Shown piece by piece: positions 16,326 through 40,320 of a DNA stretch of 40,320 nucleotides. Within the stretch, counting starts at the first letter, position 1. Each line of letters opens with the position of its first letter. The notes under the pieces are model-generated. The model ran no database searches and was not told the origin of the DNA. It saw only the letters and a program-made list of their open reading frames with translations. Where the stretch lies: assembly GCA_017469625.1 (NCBI GenBank), contig JAFUGA010000028.1, positions 1-40,320 of the forward strand, in the 5' to 3' direction. Made by a program: the position numbers and the translations under genes. This stretch comes from Bacteroidales bacterium (GTDB lineage: Bacteria > Bacteroidota > Bacteroidia > Bacteroidales > P3).

Positions 16326-18767
16326 TTACCATTTTTTGTTTTTAAGATCATTTAGTTTCTGCGTTTCATCTTGCTCTTCTTGTAGAAACTTTAGTAATTC
16401 TTCTTTTGATATACCTAATGACTTTATTTTAGTGTTTAACTGTTTTTTATAGTCTGTCTTCTCAAGAAATGATATGCGTGCATTTGCTTGTTCTCTGTTT
16501 ACTAAGTTTAGATGTTTTTTCGCATCTATTAAAAGCAGTAGTTCTATTAGATCTTTCTCAGACATCATATCTATATTATATTCCATATTTTTGTATTTTA
16601 TTATATTGTCAGATTTTCCTTTATTTGTATTGATAAAAAAGTTAATATCTTTATTTAGACCAAAATTGTATGCTTTTTTTTGCATTAATTCTATTTGTTC
16701 TCTATATCTTTTTGGTAGTGCGAGATATTTATTGTTTCCTATGTTTATAGTTATATCATTATAGAGTTCTTTTTCTTCATCAGTTAGTATAGCAACATCA
16801 GAACCCCAATATATAGTATTTGAATAAATCTTAAATATTTTAGACATTACCCATTGAACAACCTCTTCTTTATCATCTTTTACTATAGAATGATACTTTT
16901 CGTAAAATTGTATTCCTAATATTTTACAATTAAGATATTTTTGCAAATCCATAATATTGACCCAAATAAAAGACTTTTGCTTCGCCACCGTTTCATTCAT
17001 CGTATTTTTTAGGTAATCATTGTATTTTGATTTTACGTAGTGTATAATATCACTAATATTTACGTCATCTTCTTCTGTCAGATATTTTTCATATGAAGAT
17101 TCTTCGTATAGTAGTTTTTCTGCAAAATCAATAGGAATATTAAAGGATTGTTGTTGTATGAAATCAATACTCTTATCTCTGTTAACAAGAAATTCGTTTT
17201 TTTTATGTTGCAGTATTGAATGAATAATTTGTCCAATAACAGTGTCTTTATCTAATAAGTAGTGTTTTTTTAAAAACTCATATTCTTCTTCATTTAGTAT
17301 GCTATTTGGTATTAAATTATAGCCATTTTCTTTAAAGAAAGCAAGAACTTCTGATATATCATATCCAAAATCTTTGACAATTTCAGATAAACACATAGGT
17401 TCGTTATCCAAAGTTTTACTTTTATAGATTAACTCCGTAGGTTCGTTACCCTCTTCTGTATCAAAAAAATGTACATAATGTTCTTTTCTATCTTCAAGGT
17501 CTAAATCTCCTGCAAATTCTTCTTTTGGAAAATCTATAAGATAATCTTCTTTGCCTTCAAAATGGTGTTGCCATTTTCTCATTGAAGACGGTAATCCAAA
17601 TTTATTATACAAACCAACGTTATCAAGAATAAGTACTTTGTCTTTATTATGAGAACGTCTTAATCCTCGTCCTACCTGTTGTAAATATAAAGCCAAAGAC
17701 ATAGTAGGTCTGCAAAGTTGTATAAACTCTATATCTGGACAATCAAAACCCTCAGTGAAGATGTCTACATTACATAGAATATCTATTTTATTTTGTTTAA
17801 AATCGTCAACAATCTTATCTCTATCCTCTTTTGGTGTGTTACTATCAATTGTAGTCGTTCTATAGCCGTGTTGATTAAAAAGATTAGATAACTGCCAACA
17901 GTGTACTTGATTTATAGCATAAATAATACCTTTCTTTCCTTTTGCATATTTTTCATAAGTTTCCAAAATATTAGCACGAATAGGATTGGTATTTAAAAGA
18001 GTTTCCATTCCCGCTTCGGCATAATCTCCTATGTCTATTCTTAGATTATAGATTTCTTTTTGTAAAATAGAATCGGGTTTAATAGAATAATACTCATAAT
18101 CACTCAAATATCCTTGTTTAATAAATTTATAAACAGGGTCGCTAACAATCAATTTATCATAAAAATCCGTAAAAGGTTGTTTATTTAATCTATACGGTGT
18201 TGCTGTTACGCCTAAAGTACGTGCATATGGAAAAGTTTCTCTAATTCTTAAATAAGTTTCAGCAACAGAATGATGTGCTTCATCTATGATTATAAAATCA
18301 AATTTTGTATTTCGCCAATTATTTAACCTTTCTTCCCTACTAAGAGATTGAACAGATGCAACTTGTACATTACAGTCTTGTTCTTCGACAGTTTGAGATA
18401 TAATTTTACCACAGATATGGTTATAGGTATAAAATAGAGTGTCTGAAATTTGTTTAACTAATTCTCTTCTATGAACTAATACAAGTACTTTAGGTATGAA
18501 AATAGATAACCTCTTATTTACATTTTTCTCTTTTTCTTTTTGTGTGTAATAATAGTCTTGTAAGTCTTTTATAATAGAAGAAAATAGTCGTGTCTTACCT
18601 GTACCTGTAGGCATTTGTAACATAATATTACGAAAACCATTTTGCCACGCTCGGTATATTTCATATTTTTTCTTTTGTTGATAGTCATATAGATTTTTGA
18701 AATAGCTTTGCTTTGTAGCAAAACGCCATAAGTCATCAAAATCTATGTTGCGAAAACCACCTTTCAT
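16326..18767 (-). CDS. DEAD/DEAH-box superfamily 2 helicase, RadD/SSL2-like
   Basis: This is an ATP-dependent nucleic-acid helicase or translocase. Visible SF2 motifs are the Walker A MPTGTGKT (near residue 51), motif Ia VLVHRRELVKQ, the DEAH box IIDEAHH (near 155), motif III GVTATPYR, motif V region VDIFTEGFDCPDI (near 338) and motif VI QQVGRGLRR (near 367). The helicase core fills residues 1-420 and resembles the layout of E. coli RadD, a repair helicase. The remaining 390 residues are Glu/Lys/Tyr-rich and unrecognised, making the protein longer than RadD (586). No promoter box is seen in the 87 nt between its ATG and the hairpin at 18855-18891. Expression therefore probably starts at the promoter at 19007 and depends on passing that hairpin. 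A role in repair or phage defence is possible but is not shown by the sequence. Confidence 0.85.
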   Translation of the reverse strand: MKGGFRNIDFDDLWRFATKQSYFKNLYDYQQKKKYEIYRAWQNGFRNIMLQMPTGTGKTRLFSSIIKDLQDYYYTQKEKEKNVNKRLSIFIPKVLVLVHRRELVKQISDTLFYTYNHICGKIISQTVEEQDCNVQVASVQSLSREERLNNWRNTKFDFIIIDEAHHSVAETYLRIRETFPYARTLGVTATPYRLNKQPFTDFYDKLIVSDPVYKFIKQGYLSDYEYYSIKPDSILQKEIYNLRIDIGDYAEAGMETLLNTNPIRANILETYEKYAKGKKGIIYAINQVHCWQLSNLFNQHGYRTTTIDSNTPKEDRDKIVDDFKQNKIDILCNVDIFTEGFDCPDIEFIQLCRPTMSLALYLQQVGRGLRRSHNKDKVLILDNVGLYNKFGLPSSMRKWQHHFEGKEDYLIDFPKEEFAGDLDLEDRKEHYVHFFDTEEGNEPTELIYKSKTLDNEPMCLSEIVKDFGYDISEVLAFFKENGYNLIPNSILNEEEYEFLKKHYLLDKDTVIGQIIHSILQHKKNEFLVNRDKSIDFIQQQSFNIPIDFAEKLLYEESSYEKYLTEEDDVNISDIIHYVKSKYNDYLKNTMNETVAKQKSFIWVNIMDLQKYLNCKILGIQFYEKYHSIVKDDKEEVVQWVMSKIFKIYSNTIYWGSDVAILTDEEKELYNDITINIGNNKYLALPKRYREQIELMQKKAYNFGLNKDINFFINTNKGKSDNIIKYKNMEYNIDMMSEKDLIELLLLIDAKKHLNLVNREQANARISFLEKTDYKKQLNTKIKSLGISKEELLKFLQEEQDETQKLNDLKNKKW

Positions 18768-18896: not shown

Positions 18897-18941
18897 TTAT
18901 TGTTTATAACTCTCTGAGAAGTGGTTATTTACCCCCCCCAT
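18897..18941 (-). CDS. Possible 14-residue leader peptide starting with a G8 run
   Basis: The frame MGGVNNHFSESYKQ begins at ATG 18939-18941, whose G is the first of eight consecutive G, and stops at 18897-18899, five bases before the terminator stem. One extra or one missing G would stop translation within a few codons. No ribosome site is visible, which is normal for this phylum. Translation is not proven. Confidence 0.3.
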   Translation of the reverse strand: MGGVNNHFSESYKQ

Positions 18942-19006
18942 ATAATTTTCTAATAATATGATATTTACGTTATTATTTCTCATTCTTTTGCTCTTATTTT
19001 CTACTG

Positions 19007-19119: not shown

Positions 19120-22100
19120 CTATTTTTTGATAAGTTTTTCTGTGCGGTTGATTGTGTCGGTTACTATTCTTATGTAATATACTCCACTTGCAAGCGTTGA
19201 TGTTTCTATTCTCACTTCTTGTTCTCCTTGTGCAAGTTTTGTTTCTTTGATAGTTCTTCCTTGAACATCTGTTACATAAATTGTAGCATCAGAGTTTATT
19301 CCTTCAACTCTCAACATAGCATCTTCTGTTGTAGGGTTAGGATAAAGCATTACGTTTATTCCATTTTCTACATCATTTATACTGCTATTTACTGTCAAAG
19401 TAAGAACTACTGTACTGTCGCAACCGTTTTCATCTGTGAAATTTTCTGTAAAAGTTCCGCCTGTAGTTAAAGATTGTGTACCAAATTGATAAGGCAATTC
19501 ATCAGAGTTAATCGTTAGGTTTATTGTCTTAGTGTTTTCTGGTCTAACTATTAAAGTTATAGTATAAATTGTATCACATTCTTCCCCCTGACCAGAAACG
19601 GTTATCGTATTAGTACCCTCTGTTAATGTCTGTCCATAAAATTCTGCTGTTTCTCCGAAACAAACTATTATTGTTTCGCTTGCAGTTTCTGGAGTACAAG
19701 GTTCTTCGCCTTGTTCAAGGGTTGTGAATGTTACTTCATCACCATATTGAGTACCATTTGCAGTTGTTACAAATGCTTTATAAGTGTAAGAAGTGTTTGC
19801 TGTCAAACCACTTAAAGCATAAGTCATAGTTGTACCTGTAGCAGAAACACTTGTATAAGTACCACCAACTGTTGCTTTCCATTCAAAACCACGTGCTGTC
19901 ATTGTTTGGTTTCCTAAATCAGTTATAGCACCGTTAAGAGTTGCAGAAGTTTGTGTAATACCTGTAGCAGCATTTGTAACTACTGTAGGTTCTATAGGTT
20001 GTTGTGTTCCTATGGTTTCTAAAACCATATCATCAACTTTGCACCACATAACAGATTCTATGCTTTTACCACGTAAGGCTATGTACTTTCCTTCTCCTGT
20101 ATAGTTTGCCAAAGATAGCACATATTCGGTATATTCTTGCACTCTATTTACACAGATAGTATCTACCTCAACCCAAGTTGATGGGTCATTGAAATCTGTC
20201 ATTACTCCTATCATAATGCTGAATTTCCAACCATCATAATTAGGAGAATGTTTTGCCCAGAAACGTAATTGCAGAGTATTGATTGGGTAAATATCAGTAT
20301 CAACAGGCGGTAATACCAATGTAGAAATAGGGTTGCTACTATAGAAATACAATAAGTTGCTTCCGCTTCGTGAATCTGTATATGATTCTACTTTAGGATA
20401 GCCATTGTTAGAGTTTCTATTATATACCGTCCAGCATATAGGCAAATTCGTTGTTTCATCATAGTTTTCAAAATCCCAAGAAAGAGGAAGACTTGTTACT
20501 AAATCGCAAGGTGTGAAGAAAGTATAAACAAGGCTTTGTGGGTCTGTATCATCTCCGCAAATAGCCTTAACATACCATTGATATGCAGAAGAATGTTCAA
20601 ATTCGGATAAAGTATAATTTGTTTCGTTTATATTATTTACTTCCACATATTCGCTACTTCCAACTTTTTTATAATAAATAACGAAATTATTTGCATCAGA
20701 TGTCCAAGAAAGTTCCATACCTCCTTCTGTCAAAGAAGCACTAAGACCCACAGGACGAGAACAAGAAGGAATCTTCTCTAAAGTAACATTATCAATATAA
20801 AGATAGTTGTCCGCAATATTTTTAAATGCTACATAAGAACCTTCTCCCTCGTAAGTAGTAAGAGGAACTTCGTACAGAACATAATTATCTGTAAGGGTAA
20901 GACCACTTACTTGAGTAAAGGTATTAACATCTTCTGGGTTAGTCATAACACCTATTTGAAGAACATTACCATTGCCTTTTGCATAGAAAGAAACTTGCGT
21001 TTCTGTTATTTCTATTACATCTCTATCAATAGAAGTTAGGGCTATAGTATTTGGAGTATAGAAACACAAGTATCCATTTCCACTTTGAGCATTATAAGAA
21101 CTTTCGTTAATATATGGATAAGTTGTATTTGCATTGCCTTTTGTCCAGCACGAAGGCACAGGATATGACCCTTCTGGTAGAGTTTCAAAATCGCAAGTGT
21201 AAGGTAATTCTGTTAAACCAACGCAAGAGGTAGTAAATAGTGCAGGTTCGCTGGAAAGTAATGTACCATCATTGCAAATAGCCGCCACATACCATTGATA
21301 AGTTGTAGTAGGGGAAAGGTTTTCTATGGTATAAATACCCTCACTGTTTAAAGAAATATTCTCATCTATTGTATAATCTTCTTCAGAACCTGCTACTCTA
21401 TAATGAACATTATAATTACTAACATTACTATTCCAAGAAAGATTTGCACTATTAGAAGAAGGAATAGCAGATAATTGGTTTGGTTCAACACAATCAGGAA
21501 TTAAATCCACTATAATATCATCTACATACCAATACCAATTGGCTGTATTACTGTAAGAGAAAGCAATATTTCCTGTTTGTCCATCTTCCAATTCTATATC
21601 CGCATAATTAAGGGTTATCTTATGATATTCGTTATCCCCAATAGTAGTACCTGTAAAAGTGTTCAATGCAACGAACGTATTTACATCATTAGGGTTAGTC
21701 ATATATCCTACAGAGAAAGTACCAGAATAAGACCCTTCTCTTCTTGTCCAAAATGAAAGTTGAAGTTCATTAAGATTTGTTTCAAAAGGAGGCAAGACTG
21801 CATACTGTGTTACACCAGAATAATTATTTGCTTGAAACTCTAAAGCCCTGCCACTTCTTGCATGATTATTGGTAACTTTAGGATAACCCGAATAAGGGTT
21901 GATTTGTTTCCAACAATCTGGTATAGTACTTATTGGAGTATCATTAAAATTTTCTCCCCAAGGTAAATCTACTATACTTTCACAAAGAGTGGCAAATCTC
22001 TGTACTCCACTTGCAAGAGATATACCGTCATTGCAGTTCGCAACTACATACCACGCATATTCTTTATTTGAAATAAGTCCGTTAAGTACATATTCTCCAT

Positions 22101-23670
22101 TTTCGTTCAGTTGAATATCATCTAAAACACTATAAATATTATCTCCTACAACCTTATAATAAAGTGTAAAGTTCTCTCCCGTAGAAGTCCAAGACAAAGT
22201 TGCAGAACCTGAGGTTGTGGTAGATGAAAGGTTATTAGGACGAGTACAAGCAGGAATATCAGATACCATTACATCATCTAAATACAAGTAAAATCCATCT
22301 GCAGGTGCTTCTTTTCTAACAAAAGCAATATAACGATTACCTGAATATCCCTGAAGTGGGATTTCATAAAATTGGGCATCGCCTATAGGTACCATAGTTT
22401 GGAATAATCTTGTAAAACCAGGCAAATCATCTGTTGTAGAAGTAGGAGCAGAAAGTTCTATATCTTCATCTGAAATATATACTGCTATTTCATCTTGTTC
22501 TGCTGTGTAAGTTGTTCTATTTCTGGCATAAAATGAAAGTTGTTTGTTGCCATCAAGTTCCATAAGAGGAGAAACAAGCCAATCGTTATTTGCTGTATTA
22601 TAATCGGTGTAAAGTGTTGCAGAAGCAAGTCCATTGATAGGGGTGTTTGTTGTTCTTGTCCATTTATCGTTATCTCCATTTACATCAAAAACTCTCCAAC
22701 AGTGAGGAGCAAGTTGCCCATCTGCCCCTGTAAACCATGCATTCTCAAAGTTCTCTATCCAAGGGAAATTTGTAACAATACCACAAGCGGTAGAAAAGAT
22801 AGTATTCTTCCATAAAGAAGCAGTTTCTGAACATTCGGTTTTTATTCTCAAAGAATAAGTTTTTGATGGCAATAAATCCGAAATCTCAATAGAGGTAACA
22901 TTGTCTGCATATAGTTCTACAACACTATTATCTTCCCAAGAATCCTCAAAAGGTTTGTACTGCAAAGTGTAGGAACTGCCTTCCATACCCTCACTTTCTG
23001 TCCATGAAATAGTAACAGAGGTTTCCTCTACATCGGTAGTAGAGATTGTGGCAGGAGAATAGCAAATATTTGTGCCAGAAGCTAATATGGTCAGTTTTAC
23101 GTTTGGAAAATAATTATCTATTTGAGGACTTGTACCCGGATTTTCTGCAGTAACAACATTATAATCGCTTGCTACACGCCAAGAACGGTTATCTGTCTGT
23201 TCTATAGTTGATTCCCAATAAGTATTAGTCCCCATTGTTCCCGTTTGGTCCTCTATTGCTATTACCAAATTGGAATCTGCAGAATATGAAAAAGGAGTTT
23301 CCAAAGTTATAGTAACCCAATCTGATGTTGAAAAGGAAACCTCGCCTACGAAAACTTCGGTTAAATTGCTTACAGGTATGCAATTAGAAGTGAAACTATT
23401 CAAAGAAGTTTCACCCATTAGTATTCTCCATGTTCTTGTACCGATATTGCTTGCAGTTGGCTTGTATGCAATGGAAGTAATTATACCTCCCATGTTTATC
23501 TCACTCACATGGTAGATGTTTTGTGCATAACTGTATTTGAAATTTGTTTGAGATGGAGAACGAAAATTAGTACTCACATCTATACCTGTTCCCACAACAA
23601 TTTCTTCTTGTGCGAAAGTGCTGATAGACAATGCTATTGCTACCAGCATAAGTAAAAATAGTTTTTTCAT
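19120..23670 (-). CDS. Secreted multidomain surface protein (FN3 plus cleaved-adhesin-like modules, T9SS type A signal)
   Basis: The protein has 1516 residues. A signal peptide (MKKLFLLMLVAIALSISTFA, 1-20) is followed by an N-terminal domain (about 22-200). Four modules of about 250 residues come next, each an FN3-like part plus a jelly-roll part resembling cleaved-adhesin domains. They begin near Cys 203, 475, 727 and 970 and end with a Y/WYVDDI-type strand. A further FN3-like domain spans about 1225-1318, two Cys-rich repeats (CFGETAEFYGQ-like) follow to 1430, and a type A sorting domain closes the protein (YPNPTTEDAMLRV ... ASGVYYIRI, 1431-1516). T9SS cargo of this kind is exported across the outer membrane and attached to the cell surface. 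Binding partners are unknown; adhesion or glycan contact is inferred from the modules. It is paralogous to the gene at 34231. No promoter box is seen close upstream. Confidence 0.9.
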   Translation of the reverse strand: MKKLFLLMLVAIALSISTFAQEEIVVGTGIDVSTNFRSPSQTNFKYSYAQNIYHVSEINMGGIITSIAYKPTASNIGTRTWRILMGETSLNSFTSNCIPVSNLTEVFVGEVSFSTSDWVTITLETPFSYSADSNLVIAIEDQTGTMGTNTYWESTIEQTDNRSWRVASDYNVVTAENPGTSPQIDNYFPNVKLTILASGTNICYSPATISTTDVEETSVTISWTESEGMEGSSYTLQYKPFEDSWEDNSVVELYADNVTSIEISDLLPSKTYSLRIKTECSETASLWKNTIFSTACGIVTNFPWIENFENAWFTGADGQLAPHCWRVFDVNGDNDKWTRTTNTPINGLASATLYTDYNTANNDWLVSPLMELDGNKQLSFYARNRTTYTAEQDEIAVYISDEDIELSAPTSTTDDLPGFTRLFQTMVPIGDAQFYEIPLQGYSGNRYIAFVRKEAPADGFYLYLDDVMVSDIPACTRPNNLSSTTTSGSATLSWTSTGENFTLYYKVVGDNIYSVLDDIQLNENGEYVLNGLISNKEYAWYVVANCNDGISLASGVQRFATLCESIVDLPWGENFNDTPISTIPDCWKQINPYSGYPKVTNNHARSGRALEFQANNYSGVTQYAVLPPFETNLNELQLSFWTRREGSYSGTFSVGYMTNPNDVNTFVALNTFTGTTIGDNEYHKITLNYADIELEDGQTGNIAFSYSNTANWYWYVDDIIVDLIPDCVEPNQLSAIPSSNSANLSWNSNVSNYNVHYRVAGSEEDYTIDENISLNSEGIYTIENLSPTTTYQWYVAAICNDGTLLSSEPALFTTSCVGLTELPYTCDFETLPEGSYPVPSCWTKGNANTTYPYINESSYNAQSGNGYLCFYTPNTIALTSIDRDVIEITETQVSFYAKGNGNVLQIGVMTNPEDVNTFTQVSGLTLTDNYVLYEVPLTTYEGEGSYVAFKNIADNYLYIDNVTLEKIPSCSRPVGLSASLTEGGMELSWTSDANNFVIYYKKVGSSEYVEVNNINETNYTLSEFEHSSAYQWYVKAICGDDTDPQSLVYTFFTPCDLVTSLPLSWDFENYDETTNLPICWTVYNRNSNNGYPKVESYTDSRSGSNLLYFYSSNPISTLVLPPVDTDIYPINTLQLRFWAKHSPNYDGWKFSIMIGVMTDFNDPSTWVEVDTICVNRVQEYTEYVLSLANYTGEGKYIALRGKSIESVMWCKVDDMVLETIGTQQPIEPTVVTNAATGITQTSATLNGAITDLGNQTMTARGFEWKATVGGTYTSVSATGTTMTYALSGLTANTSYTYKAFVTTANGTQYGDEVTFTTLEQGEEPCTPETASETIIVCFGETAEFYGQTLTEGTNTITVSGQGEECDTIYTITLIVRPENTKTINLTINSDELPYQFGTQSLTTGGTFTENFTDENGCDSTVVLTLTVNSSINDVENGINVMLYPNPTTEDAMLRVEGINSDATIYVTDVQGRTIKETKLAQGEQEVRIETSTLASGVYYIRIVTDTINRTEKLIKK

Positions 23671-33925: not shown

Positions 33926-33956
33926 TTTGTTGGTTGGATAATTTTTTATATCTTTG
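33926..33956 (+). promoter_or_regulatory. Promoter of poly-G leader B
   Basis: TTTG (33926-33929), 19 nt, TATCTTTG (33949-33956), a textbook Bacteroidetes promoter. The flank ATTTTTTATATCTTTGCA is almost the same as at leader A. Confidence 0.75.
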
Positions 33957-34026
33957 CAACCTTGTGTTGTGATAAAATTTGTGTATGAAACAATTATACC
34001 GTTGTAAATCAATTAGATATATTACT

Positions 34027-34074
34027 ATGGGGGGGGGTAAAAGACTCAATTTGCCCTTCGAAGATAGTCTGTAA
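34027..34074 (+). CDS. Possible 15-residue leader peptide starting with a G9 run
   Basis: The frame MGGGKRLNLPFEDSL begins at 34027 and stops at 34072-34074, just before the terminator stem. With one G fewer the frame would read through the 5' arm of the terminator and stop in its loop; with one G more it would stop after four codons. No ribosome site is visible. Translation is not proven. Confidence 0.3.
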   Translation: MGGGKRLNLPFEDSL

Positions 34075-34078
34075 TCAT

Positions 34079-34126
34079 AAAATCCCTGCTATTCAACATT
34101 CTTAATCGTTGAATAGCAGGGATTTT
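34079..34126 (+). terminator. Terminator hairpin of poly-G leader B
   Basis: A perfect stem of about 19 bp (34079-34097 with 34108-34126), a 10-nt loop, and a T-run at its end. It is one of the strongest hairpins in the window and lies 104 nt before the giant gene. Confidence 0.85.
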
Positions 34127-34230: not shown

Positions 34231-37200
34231 ATGAAAAAAACGTTGTTGTTTATGCTGATGGCAATAGTATTGTCCATTAGCGGTTTCTCGCAAGAAGAGA
34301 TACTTGTGGGAACAGGAGCGGATATGAGTACAAATTTCCGTTCTCCATCTCAAACAAACTTCAAGTACAGTTATGCCCAAAATATCTATCATGCCGATGA
34401 GATAGGTATGGGTGGAACTATCACAGCGATTGCCTACAAAGGTAGTACAAGTGCTATGGGACAAAGAACTTGGAGAATCCTAATGGGAAACACTTCTTTA
34501 GACGGTTTTGCTTCAGATTGTGTGCCTGTAAGTGATTTGACTGAGGTTTTCGTAGGTCAAGTTTCTATATTAGGAGAAGATTGGACTGTTATAACTTTGG
34601 AAAACCCTTTTGAGTATTCAGGAACTTCCAATTTGGTAATAGCAGTAGAAGACCAAACAGGTGAAATGAATACTTACGGTTATTATGAATCAACAACCGG
34701 ATTGAGTGAAAATCGTTCTTGGCGTACAGTAAGCGATTATACTGCCTATACAGCAGAAAATCCTGGTACAAGTCCTCAAGTAGATACTTATTTTCCAAAT
34801 GTACAACTAACTATTATTTCTTCTAATGAAGATATGTGTTATACCCCTGTTACAATTTCTGTAGAGGATATAGAAGAAACTTCTGCTACTGTTTCATGGA
34901 CAGAAAGAGAAGGTGCAGAAGGTGGCTCTTATACCATACAATATAAAACTGCAAACCAATCTTGGGACGATGAAGATATTGTAGAATTATCCGTAAATAG
35001 TGGAACTTCTGTAGAACTTTCTGATTTATCTTCTGCTACAAATTATTCATTGAGAATAAGAACAGAATGTTCAGAATCTGTTTCTGTATGGAAAAGCACA
35101 ACTTTTTCTACCGCTTGCGGTGTTATAACAAGTTTCCCTTGGACAGAAAATTTTGAAACTATTTGGCAAGAAGGAACGAATGGACAACTTGCTCCTAATT
35201 GTTGGACTGCTTTTGATGTAAATGGAGATGGTGATAGATGGGTAAGAACTACAAGTTCTCCTATTAGTGGTTCTGCTTCTGCAACAATCTACACAGATTA
35301 TAACTCTGCTAACAACGATTGGCTTGTTTCTCCTCTTATGGAATTAGATGGTAACAAACAAGTTTCTTTCTATGTTAGAAATCAAAGCAATACCACATCT
35401 GAACAAGATGAGATAGCAGTATATATTTCAGACGAAGATTTAGAACTCTCTGCTCCTTCTTCTACAACAGATGATTTGCCTGGTTTTACAAGATTATTCC
35501 AAACTGTAATACCTGTAGGTGCAACACAACTTTACGAAGTTTCTCTTCAAGGATATGAAGGCAATCGCCATATTGCTTTTGTTAGAAAGGAAGCTCCTGC
35601 AGATGGTTATTATTTGTATTTAGATGATGTAACAGTATCTGATATTCCAGAATGTTCTCGTCCTATGAGTCTTATGGCAAACACTACTTCAAGTTCTGCA
35701 ACTTTGTCTTGGGTTTCTACAGGAGAAAACTTTACTCTTTATTATAAACTTTCAAGTGCAAGTGAATATACTGTTGTTGAAGATGTAGAGTTAGACGAAA
35801 ATGGAGAATATGAACTTGATGAACTTAGTGCAAGTTCAACTTATTCTTGGTATGTAGTAGCTAATTGTGATGATGAAACAACTCCTACAAGTAGTGTAAG
35901 TACTTTCACTACTCCTTGTGGCAATATAACAACTTTACCATGGGAAGAAAACTTTGATAATGTTCAGACAAATACAATACCAGATTGTTGGAATAGAATA
36001 AATATTTATAGTGGTTATCCTCAAGTTACTACTTCTTATGCAAGAAGTGGAAGGGCTTTAGAGTTCCAAGCAAACTATTCTGGTGGTGTAACACAATATG
36101 CAATTTTACCTCCTTTTGAAACAAGTCTTAATGAACTTCAACTTACATTTTGGACAAGAAGAGAAGGTTCTTCTTCCGGTACTTTCTCTGTAGGTTATAT
36201 GACTAATCCTAACGATGTAAATACATTCGTTGCATTGGATACCTACTTAGGTTCAGCTATGGAGGACAACAATTATCATAAAGTAACTCTTAATTATGCA
36301 AATATAGAATTGGAAGATGGACAAACTGCTAATATTGCTTTTGCTTATAGTTCTACCTCTAATTGGTATTGGTATGTAGATGATATTACTGTAGATGTAA
36401 TCCCTGCATGTGTTGAACCTTCTGCATTAACAACAAACAATATTCTTTCTACATCTGTGGAACTTTCTTGGACAGGACCTGAAGATGTAACAGAATATAC
36501 TGTTTATTACAAAAAATCTGCAGAAAACGAATTTACAGCAGTAGATGAAACTATTTCAGAAACTCCTTACACTCTTACAGATTTGGAACCTGCTACAACA
36601 TATCAATGGAAAGTTTCTTTCATCTGTTCAGAAGATGATTCTGAAATAATGAGTGAAGCAAAAACATTCTCTACTGCTTGTGAAGCTATTACAAGTTTGC
36701 CACGTTTCTGGGATTTTGAAACAGGTAACGATGGAGGTACTTCTTCTTATACTTTGCCTAACTGCTGGGATAGACCAGATGCAAGTTATCCTTACGTATA
36801 TGAAGGAGCTTCTTATGCTTCAAGTGGAACAAAATCTTTGTATTTCTACAACAGAGGAAATATAGCTTGTCTTCCTTTGGTTGATGTAGAAACTTATCCT
36901 ATCAACACACTTCAACTAAGATTCAATGTAAGAGGTAGTACTTCTAATACAATCTTTGAATATGGTACTATGTCAAATCCTACCGATGCAAATAGTTTTG
37001 AAGTTCTTGGAACTATAACTATTCCTGTTGGTTCTGGAAGTGATTATCAAAATGATGTAGTAGCAAATTATTCAAACTATGAAGGAGAAAATCTTTACAT
37101 AGCTTTGCGTTTTTCTAATAATTCTGTTGCAACTTGGACTGTGGTAGATGATGTTACATTGGAAGAAATACCAGCATGTGCTATTCCTTCAGATTTAACT

Positions 37201-40200
37201 GCAAATGCTACATCTACATCTGCTGAACTTTCATGGATAGGTAATGTTTCTTCGTATGAGGTTTATTACAAAAAGACTTCTGAAACAGAATATACACAAG
37301 TAGAAGAAACTATTACAGAAACATCTTATACACTTGAAGTTTTAGACCCTAATACTCCATATCAGTGGTATGTTGTTGCTATATGCGATGAAGGAACAAA
37401 CCCTCAAAGTTCTCCTATAACATTTACAACAGATTGTGGAGCATGGACGGAAGAAAGCTTACCTGCAACAGAAAGTTTTGAAATAGCTACAGAAACAAAT
37501 CCTTATGTATCATGTTGGACTGTTCTTTCTTCAGACAATAGTTCTTATCCTTCACGTTACACTGCTTATGGACATACAGGAAATGCAGGTATGTTGTTAT
37601 ATTCTTACAATTCAGGAACTACTCCTAATATGATAGCAATGAATACTTATCAAGGAAATATCAATGAACTACAAGTTTCATTCTATGGAAGAGGTTGGGG
37701 AAGTTCTGCTTGTACATTAGAAGTTGGTATTATGACAGATTTATCTGACATGGAAACATTTGTATCTGCAGGCTCTTTCAACGTATCTGACTTGGCTTCT
37801 TATTCTACTTACGAAGAATTTACAGTATCTTTTGCCGATGTAGAAGTAGAAAGTGAAAATGATATGTATTATGTAGTATTCAAAACAGAAGAAACAAATT
37901 CTCAAGGTTGGCTTATAGATGATATTACTTTAGAAAAAATACCTGCATGTTCAAAACCTATAAATCTTTCTGCTAATACTTCTACTAATTCTGCAACTCT
38001 TTCTTGGAGTTCTTCAGGAGAAACATTCAATGTTTATTACAAGAAATTCAGTGAAACAAATTATACAGAAGTAACAGGTGTTTCTTTAGATGAAGACGGT
38101 AATTATTTATTAGATGAACTTGAAGCTGGAACAAGATATGATTGGTATGTAGTAGCAGATTGCGAAGGTACTAACCCTACAAGTGTTACAAGTTCATTTG
38201 CCACACAATGTGTTGCACTTACAGAAGAAACTCTTCCTTATCAAACAAGTTTTGAAGAATACGATAACTATGTTGTACCAGATTGTTGGACAAAGATAGG
38301 AAACTCTACTTATTGTGCTGCATATACAAATGCTAATGCTACAACAACAGGTACTCACCTATTTACATTCTATCAATCAAATGGAGTATTTGCAGTATTG
38401 CCTCCTTATAATGGAGATATTAGAGAACTTTCTTTAGATATGTTTGTAAGTGTATATTCTAACACTTACCCTTCTGCAAAACTTCAAGTAGGTATTCTTA
38501 CCGACCTTTCAAATACAGAAGATTTTGAAGTAGTACAAGAATATACATCTTCTTCTTTTGCTGGTAGCAACTATGCTTATGAAGAAAAAATAATAGACTT
38601 TGCAGGCATAACAACACCAGAACCAGAAAGCGGTATATACTATGTTGCTATGAGATATGTAGAATCTGGTAGCGGTACAGAGTTTATTATAGACGATGTA
38701 ACTTTAGATAAAACTCCTTCTTGTTCTCGTCCAAGCAATATAAATGCTACACCAGAAGCACACACAGCAACACTTACTTGGACTTCTACAGGAGAAAACT
38801 TTACTGTATATTACAAAAAATCATCTGAAACATCTTATACAGAAATAACAGAAGGATTTGAAGGAGAAGACGGTGTTTATACATATATTCTAAGTGGTTT
38901 GGACGCTTCTTCTACTTATAATTGGTACGTTACTGTTATTTGTGAAGATAATACAGAAACTAACAGTAGTCTTTCTACATTTAAGACAGCCTGTGGAGCA
39001 AGAACTTTACCATATTTTGAAGACTTTGAAACGTATGAAGGAGGTTACAATATTCTTCCAAACTGTTGGGATACTATAAACAAATATGGAAATTATTATC
39101 CTTCTGTTGTTACAGGTTCTGGTTCAGGAGTACATTCTGGTACAAAACGTTTGCAACTTACAGCCAACACAACTTCTTATACATATACAGTTTTGCCTCC
39201 ATTTGATGGAGATATAAACGATATGTACATAACTTTCTATTCTGGAGTTGAGTATGGACCAAACTATTCAGGAACTCTTCAAGTTGGTATTCTTCCAAAT
39301 GTAGATGATACTACAACATTTATTCCTGTATATACAATGACAGATAATCAATATACTTCAAACTATTCAATACGTGAAACAATGGATTCTGTAAGTTTTG
39401 CAGATGTAGACTTTGAAAGTGATAGTCCAAGAATAGCATTCCGTCAAAAAGCAATTTCACAGAATTATTACTACTACTTAGATGACATCAGAGTTGGTTT
39501 ATTAGATGGTAGTGAAACACCAGACCCTATAGAACCTACAGTAGTAACAAATGTTGCAACAGGAATTACCCAAACTACAGCAACACTTAACGGTGCTATA
39601 ACAGAAGTAGGCAACCAAACAATAACAGCAAGAGGATTTGAATGGAAAGCAACTGTTGGTGGTACTTATACAAGTGTTTCTGCTACAGGAACAACAATGA
39701 CAGCAAACCTAACAGGATTAACAGCAAATACATCTTACACATATAGAGCCTTTGCAACAACAGGTAATGGTACTCAATATGGTGAAGAAGTAACATTCAC
39801 AACCCTTGAAGCAGGCGAAGAACCTTGTACTCCTGCAACAGCAACTCTTAACGAAACTGTATGTTATGGTGAAACATTTACATTCAACGGAAATACTTAT
39901 ACAACAACAGGTACATATACAACAACTGTTGCTGGTGTTAATGGAGAATGTGATACAAACTATACAATCAACCTAACAGTTAATGCACAAAATACTGCTA
40001 CTGAAACAATAACTGTATGTTATGGTGAAACAGCAGAATTTAACGGTCAAACATTAACAGAGGGTACAAATACAATAACTGTTGCTGGTCAAGGAAACGA
40101 TTGTGATACTCTTTACACAGTAACTTTGGTTGTAAGACCAGAAAACACAAATACAGTAGAAGTATCAATCAACCCAGACGAACTTCCTTACCAATTCGGA

Positions 40201-40320
40201 ACACAAGTTTTGGAAACAGAAGGAACATATACAGAAGTATTTACAGATGTAAATGGTTGCGACAGTACAGTAACATTGAACTTGACAATCAACAGTGGCA
40301 TAAACGATGTAGAAAACGGA
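34231..40320 (+). CDS. Giant secreted surface protein, six FN3/cleaved-adhesin-like modules, cut at the window edge
   Basis: The frame is open from ATG 34231 to the edge, giving 2030 residues so far. The signal peptide is MKKTLLFMLMAIVLSISGFS, and the N-terminal domain (about 22-200) is closely similar to that of the 19120-23670 protein. Six modules begin near Cys 203, 475, 727, 983, 1240 and 1498, against four in the paralogue. A FN3-like domain (about 1769-1855) and three CYGET-type Cys repeats (against two) follow. The last visible residues, INDVENG, are where the paralogue enters its type A sorting domain, so about 80 residues are missing beyond the edge. Like its paralogue it should be a T9SS surface protein; its ligand is unknown. 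It lies downstream of poly-G leader B and its expression may depend on passing that terminator. Confidence 0.9.
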   Translation, partial: MKKTLLFMLMAIVLSISGFSQEEILVGTGADMSTNFRSPSQTNFKYSYAQNIYHADEIGMGGTITAIAYKGSTSAMGQRTWRILMGNTSLDGFASDCVPVSDLTEVFVGQVSILGEDWTVITLENPFEYSGTSNLVIAVEDQTGEMNTYGYYESTTGLSENRSWRTVSDYTAYTAENPGTSPQVDTYFPNVQLTIISSNEDMCYTPVTISVEDIEETSATVSWTEREGAEGGSYTIQYKTANQSWDDEDIVELSVNSGTSVELSDLSSATNYSLRIRTECSESVSVWKSTTFSTACGVITSFPWTENFETIWQEGTNGQLAPNCWTAFDVNGDGDRWVRTTSSPISGSASATIYTDYNSANNDWLVSPLMELDGNKQVSFYVRNQSNTTSEQDEIAVYISDEDLELSAPSSTTDDLPGFTRLFQTVIPVGATQLYEVSLQGYEGNRHIAFVRKEAPADGYYLYLDDVTVSDIPECSRPMSLMANTTSSSATLSWVSTGENFTLYYKLSSASEYTVVEDVELDENGEYELDELSASSTYSWYVVANCDDETTPTSSVSTFTTPCGNITTLPWEENFDNVQTNTIPDCWNRINIYSGYPQVTTSYARSGRALEFQANYSGGVTQYAILPPFETSLNELQLTFWTRREGSSSGTFSVGYMTNPNDVNTFVALDTYLGSAMEDNNYHKVTLNYANIELEDGQTANIAFAYSSTSNWYWYVDDITVDVIPACVEPSALTTNNILSTSVELSWTGPEDVTEYTVYYKKSAENEFTAVDETISETPYTLTDLEPATTYQWKVSFICSEDDSEIMSEAKTFSTACEAITSLPRFWDFETGNDGGTSSYTLPNCWDRPDASYPYVYEGASYASSGTKSLYFYNRGNIACLPLVDVETYPINTLQLRFNVRGSTSNTIFEYGTMSNPTDANSFEVLGTITIPVGSGSDYQNDVVANYSNYEGENLYIALRFSNNSVATWTVVDDVTLEEIPACAIPSDLTANATSTSAELSWIGNVSSYEVYYKKTSETEYTQVEETITETSYTLEVLDPNTPYQWYVVAICDEGTNPQSSPITFTTDCGAWTEESLPATESFEIATETNPYVSCWTVLSSDNSSYPSRYTAYGHTGNAGMLLYSYNSGTTPNMIAMNTYQGNINELQVSFYGRGWGSSACTLEVGIMTDLSDMETFVSAGSFNVSDLASYSTYEEFTVSFADVEVESENDMYYVVFKTEETNSQGWLIDDITLEKIPACSKPINLSANTSTNSATLSWSSSGETFNVYYKKFSETNYTEVTGVSLDEDGNYLLDELEAGTRYDWYVVADCEGTNPTSVTSSFATQCVALTEETLPYQTSFEEYDNYVVPDCWTKIGNSTYCAAYTNANATTTGTHLFTFYQSNGVFAVLPPYNGDIRELSLDMFVSVYSNTYPSAKLQVGILTDLSNTEDFEVVQEYTSSSFAGSNYAYEEKIIDFAGITTPEPESGIYYVAMRYVESGSGTEFIIDDVTLDKTPSCSRPSNINATPEAHTATLTWTSTGENFTVYYKKSSETSYTEITEGFEGEDGVYTYILSGLDASSTYNWYVTVICEDNTETNSSLSTFKTACGARTLPYFEDFETYEGGYNILPNCWDTINKYGNYYPSVVTGSGSGVHSGTKRLQLTANTTSYTYTVLPPFDGDINDMYITFYSGVEYGPNYSGTLQVGILPNVDDTTTFIPVYTMTDNQYTSNYSIRETMDSVSFADVDFESDSPRIAFRQKAISQNYYYYLDDIRVGLLDGSETPDPIEPTVVTNVATGITQTTATLNGAITEVGNQTITARGFEWKATVGGTYTSVSATGTTMTANLTGLTANTSYTYRAFATTGNGTQYGEEVTFTTLEAGEEPCTPATATLNETVCYGETFTFNGNTYTTTGTYTTTVAGVNGECDTNYTINLTVNAQNTATETITVCYGETAEFNGQTLTEGTNTITVAGQGNDCDTLYTVTLVVRPENTNTVEVSINPDELPYQFGTQVLETEGTYTEVFTDVNGCDSTVTLNLTINSGINDVENG

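Follow-up and report, generated by a model that had tools for sequence, protein, structure and literature searches.

Poly-G tracts inside open reading frames (ORFs) underlie the classical contingency genes, as in Campylobacter or Neisseria, and in the trp and his attenuators the position of the ribosome in a leader ORF decides whether a terminator folds. In our literature search (most subscription papers and preprints lay outside its scope) the only system with the same logic as the leaders described here was that of the pil1 and pil3 loci of S. gallolyticus (Danne et al., 2014; PMC3894217). In that system, a leader-peptide ORF with a slippage-prone repeat and an intrinsic terminator precede a surface-structure operon, and the repeat number sets the frame and hence the distance between stop codon and terminator; a stop at least 28 nt upstream of the terminator gives low expression, and a stop just upstream of the hairpin, or translation through it, gives high expression. 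Heritable ON/OFF switching of surface genes is also described within the phylum considered here, in the invertible promoters of Bacteroides, but there it proceeds by DNA inversion through a recombinase (PMC11868660). A term search of the same 2025 review of phase variation found no occurrence of "leader peptide", "attenuation" or "gallolyticus".

Here we analyze a stretch of 40,320 nt from a Bacteroidales bacterium (contig JAFUGA010000028.1; hereafter the window), in which a leader upstream of a giant surface-protein gene (leader B) matches the pil1/pil3 switch feature by feature at the sequence level. We chose phase-variable attenuation as our reading on the strength of this match, and leader B is probably a phase-variable transcription attenuator. 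A preliminary description of this DNA had known of no described family with this plan; pil1 and pil3 follow the same logic and have a working mechanism (PMC3894217).

Two poly-G leaders in the window

Leader B lies on the forward strand. Its -7 promoter box, TATCTTTG (33949-33956), is of the TAnnTTTG type, which we take to be the Bacteroidota-type -7 box. The proposed slippage tract is a run of nine Gs (34029-34037, forward strand) that is read directly from the sequence and varies among paralogues. The run starts 72 nt after the box, and not in or beside the promoter as in phase variation by promoter spacing. It lies 194 nt before the surface-protein gene with a stop codon and a terminator in between, outside any position expected of an in-gene homopolymer. 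The terminator is a hairpin (34081-34124, forward strand; dG -26.1 kcal/mol) followed by the T-rich tail TTTCT, which the built-in terminator scan, limited to loops of 3-8 nt, omitted because of its longer loop. The ATG of the surface protein (fn3 repeats, Cleaved_Adhesin) lies 106 nt beyond the hairpin, and the gene (34231-40320, forward strand) continues beyond the window.

The ATG at 34027-34029 contributes the first G of the run, and the frame starting from it has 15 codons and ends at the TAA at 34072-34074, 6 nt before the hairpin. The preliminary description took this short frame as the leader ORF. However, an ATG joined to the run is present in only 21 of 28 host leaders (missing in 7) and 4 of 19 leaders of other genomes (missing in 15), and we rejected it as the general start. 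An in-frame ATG located 42 nt upstream, at 33985, is open into the run, and such an upstream ATG occurs in 27/28 scored host leaders and 18/19 scored leaders of other genomes. Since nearly all relatives have it, the ORF of leader B probably starts at 33985 and runs through the G-run, giving 29 codons plus TAA with nine Gs (33985-34074, forward strand; MKQLYRCKSIRYITMGGGKRLNLPFEDSL), a start inferred from these relatives. Judged across the leaders, the ATG touching the run is a by-product of the TAT-ATG that stands before the Gs. Moreover, among the 28 promoter-defined tracts of the host genome the ORF head is open from an upstream ATG in 26, against 4.4 expected from dinucleotide shuffles. The misses are L033 and L059 (L-numbers denote G-run stretches or leaders, G-numbers the genomes of relatives and C-numbers host contigs), and the strict count is 25 because L036 meets a TAG that uses the first G of its run. 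In the head of L036, seven consecutive As throw the upstream ATG out of the frame, and its ORF ends at the G-run; an assembly error or a second variable tract may account for this A-run.

Leader A is on the reverse strand, to which all positions in this paragraph refer. Its -7 box (19014-19007) is again TATCTTTG, and its eight Gs (18939-18932) begin 67 nt after the box. The ORF containing them, MRNNNVNIILLENYMGGVNNHFSESYKQ plus TAA (18983-18897, ATG at 18983), ends with the stop codon at 18899-18897, and 4 nt further on comes the terminator hairpin (18892-18854; dG -22.9) followed by TTTTT. The ATG of the next gene, at 18767, lies 86 nt after the hairpin; this gene (18767-16326) encodes a defence-like ResIII/Helicase_C protein of 813 aa whose helicase region matches part of the PADLOC type IV restriction model. 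Immediately before leader A, on its upstream side, lies the gene of a large fn3 protein (19120-23670); the protein encoded at 19120-23667 carries a C-terminal Por_Secre_tail domain, a type IX secretion tail consistent with Bacteroidota.

Leaders A and B have no DNA similarity to each other, as had been claimed. The shared plan on which the preliminary description rested its mirrored architecture holds, but the final gaps (106 vs. 86 nt) and the G-runs (nine vs. eight) are not the same. Likewise, the view that they are no recent duplication is right for A against B but not for the leaders taken singly, each of which belongs to a family of duplicated leaders. In the window, GGGGGGGG occurs 3 times (overlapping matches), compared with 0.07 on average in shuffles. 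The window has 25 TAnnTTTGC sites; a terminator-like hairpin (dG of -10 or lower, 75-230 nt downstream) follows those of leaders A and B and none of the others, and both leader transcripts fold far below their shuffles (z -6.83 and -6.91). The layout shared by the two leaders in the window is not due to chance. Rfam gave no match in the window at the gathering score.

Downstream of the run, variable columns fall at third codon positions of the long frame in 6 of 14 cases in tail A and 5 of 16 in tail B, with a slight excess of pairwise third-position differences in tail A only (84/190). The peptide tails thus show no clear codon conservation, and a conserved leader peptide as the active part is unsupported.

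Leader copies in the host genome

The host genome (2.37 Mb, 65 contigs) has at least 60 forward and at least 45 reverse matches to a G octamer, overlaps included, from which 46 distinct tracts of eight or more Gs with full flanks were scored. A TAnnTTTG box lies 40-104 nt upstream in 28 of them. A terminator-like hairpin (dG of -10 or lower within 150 nt of the G-run) follows 25 of these 28 but only 5 of the other 18 (Fisher P = 3e-5), namely L002, L050, L055, L060 and L068, and we regard L050 and L068 as leaders with an imperfect box. The total comes to about 27 leaders: the 28 boxed tracts minus L033, L059, L061 and L036, which are without a hairpin or an open head, leave 24 (L028 included, although its hairpin is doubtful), to which L008 (seven Gs), L050 and L068 are added. 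The G-runs inside the leader ORFs have 7-11 Gs. Our first pattern for the host genome was too strict and gave no match. A search for TTTGC...G8 sites found 27 in the host genome, compared with 2 for a reversed-pattern control, and the next-highest counts seen were 5 in the order (392 other genomes) and, in the family (148 others), 9 in G009. This abundance of leaders is therefore unusual, although the plan itself recurs.

Other G-runs in the host genome follow different plans. L001, L002, L014, L047, L064 and L074 (contigs C1, C5, C58, C21, C47 and C58, respectively) have 9-11 Gs and no TAnnTTTG upstream; by eye they lie inside longer coding sequences and are probably ordinary in-gene contingency tracts. 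L009, L031 and L033 (contigs C30 and C11) belong to a repeated intergenic element, aaaacgg plus 8-9 Gs plus taaaatattgtataaatgtaaaa, which lacks the leader plan.

Leader A has nine other full-length copies with 78-94% DNA identity. The genes behind this family encode seven small lipoproteins of one type, the helicase of the window, a SIR2-like protein (weak TIR) and one other lipoprotein-like product. Leader B has four DNA matches (71-76% identity) and a fifth relative, L070, linked by plan and gene; the proteins downstream of all six have the same signal-peptide start, and one of them aligned to the surface protein of the window with 33% identity over 302 residues. The distance from leader to gene in families A and B is 51-127 nt in 14 of 16 cases, the others being 296 nt (L050) and 304 nt (L028). 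Other small families precede LRR_5, Sel1, M48-peptidase and WYL proteins as well as some without a Pfam match (10 proteins scanned). The suggestion that a cassette recurs before very different genes in this lineage is thus borne out by the leaders of the host genome. Moreover, homologous genes (58% identity) of two species, the host and G009, both follow a poly-G leader with this layout (L061 and L278, respectively); this family C has no canonical terminator. For the genes that follow L067 and L281, homology was rejected by BLASTP (E 0.26).

G-run length, reading frames and proposed attenuation

Seventeen leader pairs have flanks at least 90% identical over 120 nt; the number of Gs differs in 16 of them and the frame in 15. 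These pairs are not independent, since all but one belong to family A of a single draft genome. The remaining pair, L269 and L276 of G009, shares 119 of 120 flanking positions and has nine and ten Gs. This variation was observed among paralogues, and the differences could include assembly error, as homopolymer lengths in draft assemblies may be wrong. On the evidence of these comparisons, the G-run is the fast-changing part of the leaders.

The number of Gs determines where the leader frame ends. In leader B, nine Gs (3k) place the stop just ahead of the hairpin as sequenced, ten (or any 3k+1) bring a TAA directly after the run, 40 nt before the hairpin, and with eight (3k+2) the frame continues into the hairpin loop. 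Across family B, the stop comes 3 nt after the run in one frame (10 nt in L070) and 37-38 nt after it in another, just before the hairpin in 4 of 5 (the hairpin of L070 as scored begins at +40), and the third frame enters or passes the hairpin. Family A has one frame whose stop lies 35 nt beyond the run and 3-6 nt before the hairpin; in its other two frames the stops lie 3 and 7 nt beyond the run, with L045 slightly different. All 38 first-set leaders with a hairpin dG of -8 or lower combine one or more frames that reach the hairpin with one or more that end at least 20 nt before it. Shuffles of 18 representatives also give both kinds of frame in 12.1 (product P = 4e-4); this test alone is moderate evidence, since with AT-rich tails chance produces the pattern in about two thirds of cases, and its ON and OFF cut-offs were chosen after looking at the data. 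A later set had both kinds of frame in 8 of 9 leaders, L365 being without an early-stop frame.

These properties outline a possible mechanism. The G-run would gain or lose Gs by slipped-strand mispairing, and the number of Gs would set the point where the ribosome stops relative to the terminator. A ribosome near or inside the hairpin would block its folding and let RNA polymerase enter the gene (ON), and in an early-stop frame the hairpin would fold and transcription would terminate (OFF). For the nine-G state of leader B, whose stop lies 6 nt before the hairpin, occlusion would depend on the dwell of the ribosome at the stop codon. The switched genes would be those of surface proteins, lipoproteins and some defence-like functions. 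Scored as sequenced, the 28 leaders of the host genome comprise 8 ON, 18 OFF and 2 not scorable, and we infer that leader B (nine Gs) and leader A (eight Gs) would be ON. The preliminary description had suggested a recurrent cassette, which stands, but overlooked the G-run as a likely slippage tract setting the frame relative to the terminator, as well as the ATG at 33985 and the paralogues of leader B elsewhere in the genome.

Other explanations can account for parts of the plan. The leader could be an independent small gene whose transcript stops at the hairpin and either encodes a short peptide of its own or acts as a small RNA, with the downstream gene served by a separate promoter. It is indeed a complete promoter-ORF-terminator unit, and the gap behind the hairpin of leader B holds three weak 9-of-12 matches of the sigma-70 type, a consensus that is not that of Bacteroidota. 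Yet no TAnnTTTG lies between hairpin and gene ATG in leader A or leader B, families A and B recur at a similar distance before genes, and the peptide tails lack the codon conservation noted above, so that we consider this explanation unlikely. Successive rare-type glycine codons ahead of a terminator are reminiscent of the trp/his plan, and a hydrophobic or aromatic residue followed by one residue and Gly-Gly, a possible stall motif, is seen by eye in several families and genera; the GGG codons would then pause the ribosome when glycyl-tRNA or translation is limiting, and the leader would sense physiology rather than slip. Such a sensor needs a fixed frame, but the G number differs in nearly all of the near-identical pairs, 18 of the 26 scorable host leaders are in an early-stop frame, and the downstream genes encode surface proteins, lipoproteins, a helicase, SIR2-like, LRR and other proteins rather than glycine functions, all of which makes stalling distinctly improbable.

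The G-run could also act as RNA, by pairing with a pyrimidine patch or by slipping during transcription, and tune termination without heritable change. Predicted pairing patches lie within 20-30 nt after both G-runs (18932-18939 and 34029-34037), the predicted fold pairing the run with a CCCUUC-like patch in leader B and with the CCACUUCUC patch in leader A, and over 20 chosen leaders the mean z is -1.19 against mononucleotide shuffles. The stem is not general, however, as z is positive in 4 of these 20, and an ORF open into the run would stay unexplained; we regard action of this kind as highly improbable. A G-quadruplex was rejected because that motif takes four runs and each leader has a single one, of 8-11 Gs.

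The proposed phase-variable attenuation shares features with both classical mechanisms. As in contingency genes, slippage in a G-run would change a reading frame, and the host genome also has in-gene tracts; unlike them, the tract belongs to a leader ORF of its own, ahead of a terminator, and leaves the frame of the main gene untouched. As in the trp and his attenuators, the position of the ribosome in the leader ORF would govern terminator folding, but there are no codons for an operon end product (the glycine codons are not matched by the downstream genes), no competing antiterminator is needed, and a heritable frame state would replace the sensed metabolite. Nor would such a switch need the invertible flanks of the Bacteroides promoters.

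The likeness to pil1 is closer. At the sequence level, a leader ORF lies upstream of the gene behind one promoter, a slippage-prone repeat lies within that ORF, an intrinsic terminator separates it from the gene (in 25/28, not in L061 and L278), and the repeat number places the stop either far from the terminator or at or in it, L365 being the exception to the 38 concordant leaders. The S. gallolyticus repeat is a GCAGA pentamer at two pilus loci of a Gram-positive, whose expression was tested experimentally (PMC3894217), whereas about 27 leaders with a G-run in a member of the Bacteroidota are known here from their sequence. The leaders also differ in preceding many gene classes and in forming duplicated families. 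We think it likely that they work like the S. gallolyticus system, which does not imply descent from it. The poly-G form, the Bacteroidota setting and some 27 copies in one genome were not found in the literature searched, with the same limits of scope as above.

If each leader is its own switch, one genome would make many independent ON/OFF choices. A wider proposal, to which we give somewhat less than even credence, is that a mobile cassette copied before about two dozen unrelated genes forms a heritable attenuation switchboard, a bet-hedging mode of this Bacteroidota family. Each gene would then be switched independently, surface-protein and defence-like genes would both be covered, and attenuation of this type, recurring in the relatives, would be a general mode by which a single Bacteroidota genome controls some two dozen genes. 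The state of a downstream gene could be read from sequence, since the G number of its leader would predict ON or OFF. Gene-based scans for phase variation would miss such tracts because they are located in unannotated leader ORFs outside the genes they would control.

Leaders in other genomes

The preliminary description had proposed absence of the pattern from other genomes as its refutation, and pattern searches found leaders in other genomes. Within the genus, G009 has a family of seven with a different peptide, plus L274; two of the seven pass the terminator filter, and five fail it or could not be scored. G013, of the same genus, has three leaders with terminators (L270, L281 and L283). 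In a further genus of this family, box, open head and terminator are all present at 9 of the 42 sites examined, in seven genomes; 20 stretches were picked by eye here, and the box of L350 is imperfect. More distantly, there are three leaders in UBA1757 and one in G382, where a second is cut by the contig end. A narrow pattern (TTTGC...TATATG plus G8) gave 64 stretches in 84,980 species genomes, a search from which own-species records may be left out; two have the leader plan by eye, and both belong to Bacteroidales bacterium UBA1757.

Searches tied to the window leaders reached less far. An ATG-restricted pattern found no leader outside the host genome among 60 relatives because it was too narrow. 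In 13 genomes of the same genus, the DNA of leaders A and B matched only short pieces, and families A and B therefore look confined to this species in our sample. Searches of viral contigs gave 0 and 2 stretches, and by eye no terminator follows either of the two; plasmids gave no match to leader A.

Two further poly-G arrangements came up in these searches. L099 and L108 of Alistipes sp. RGIG4596 are identical stretches in which a promoter-like box and a nine-G run precede a gene, with no terminator seen; they represent either another type of leader or one contig in duplicate. In L226/L227 (G295) and L228/L229 (G384), paralogous gene pairs have a G-run near the coding start, beside the signal-peptide region, which is another form of poly-G variation in the order.
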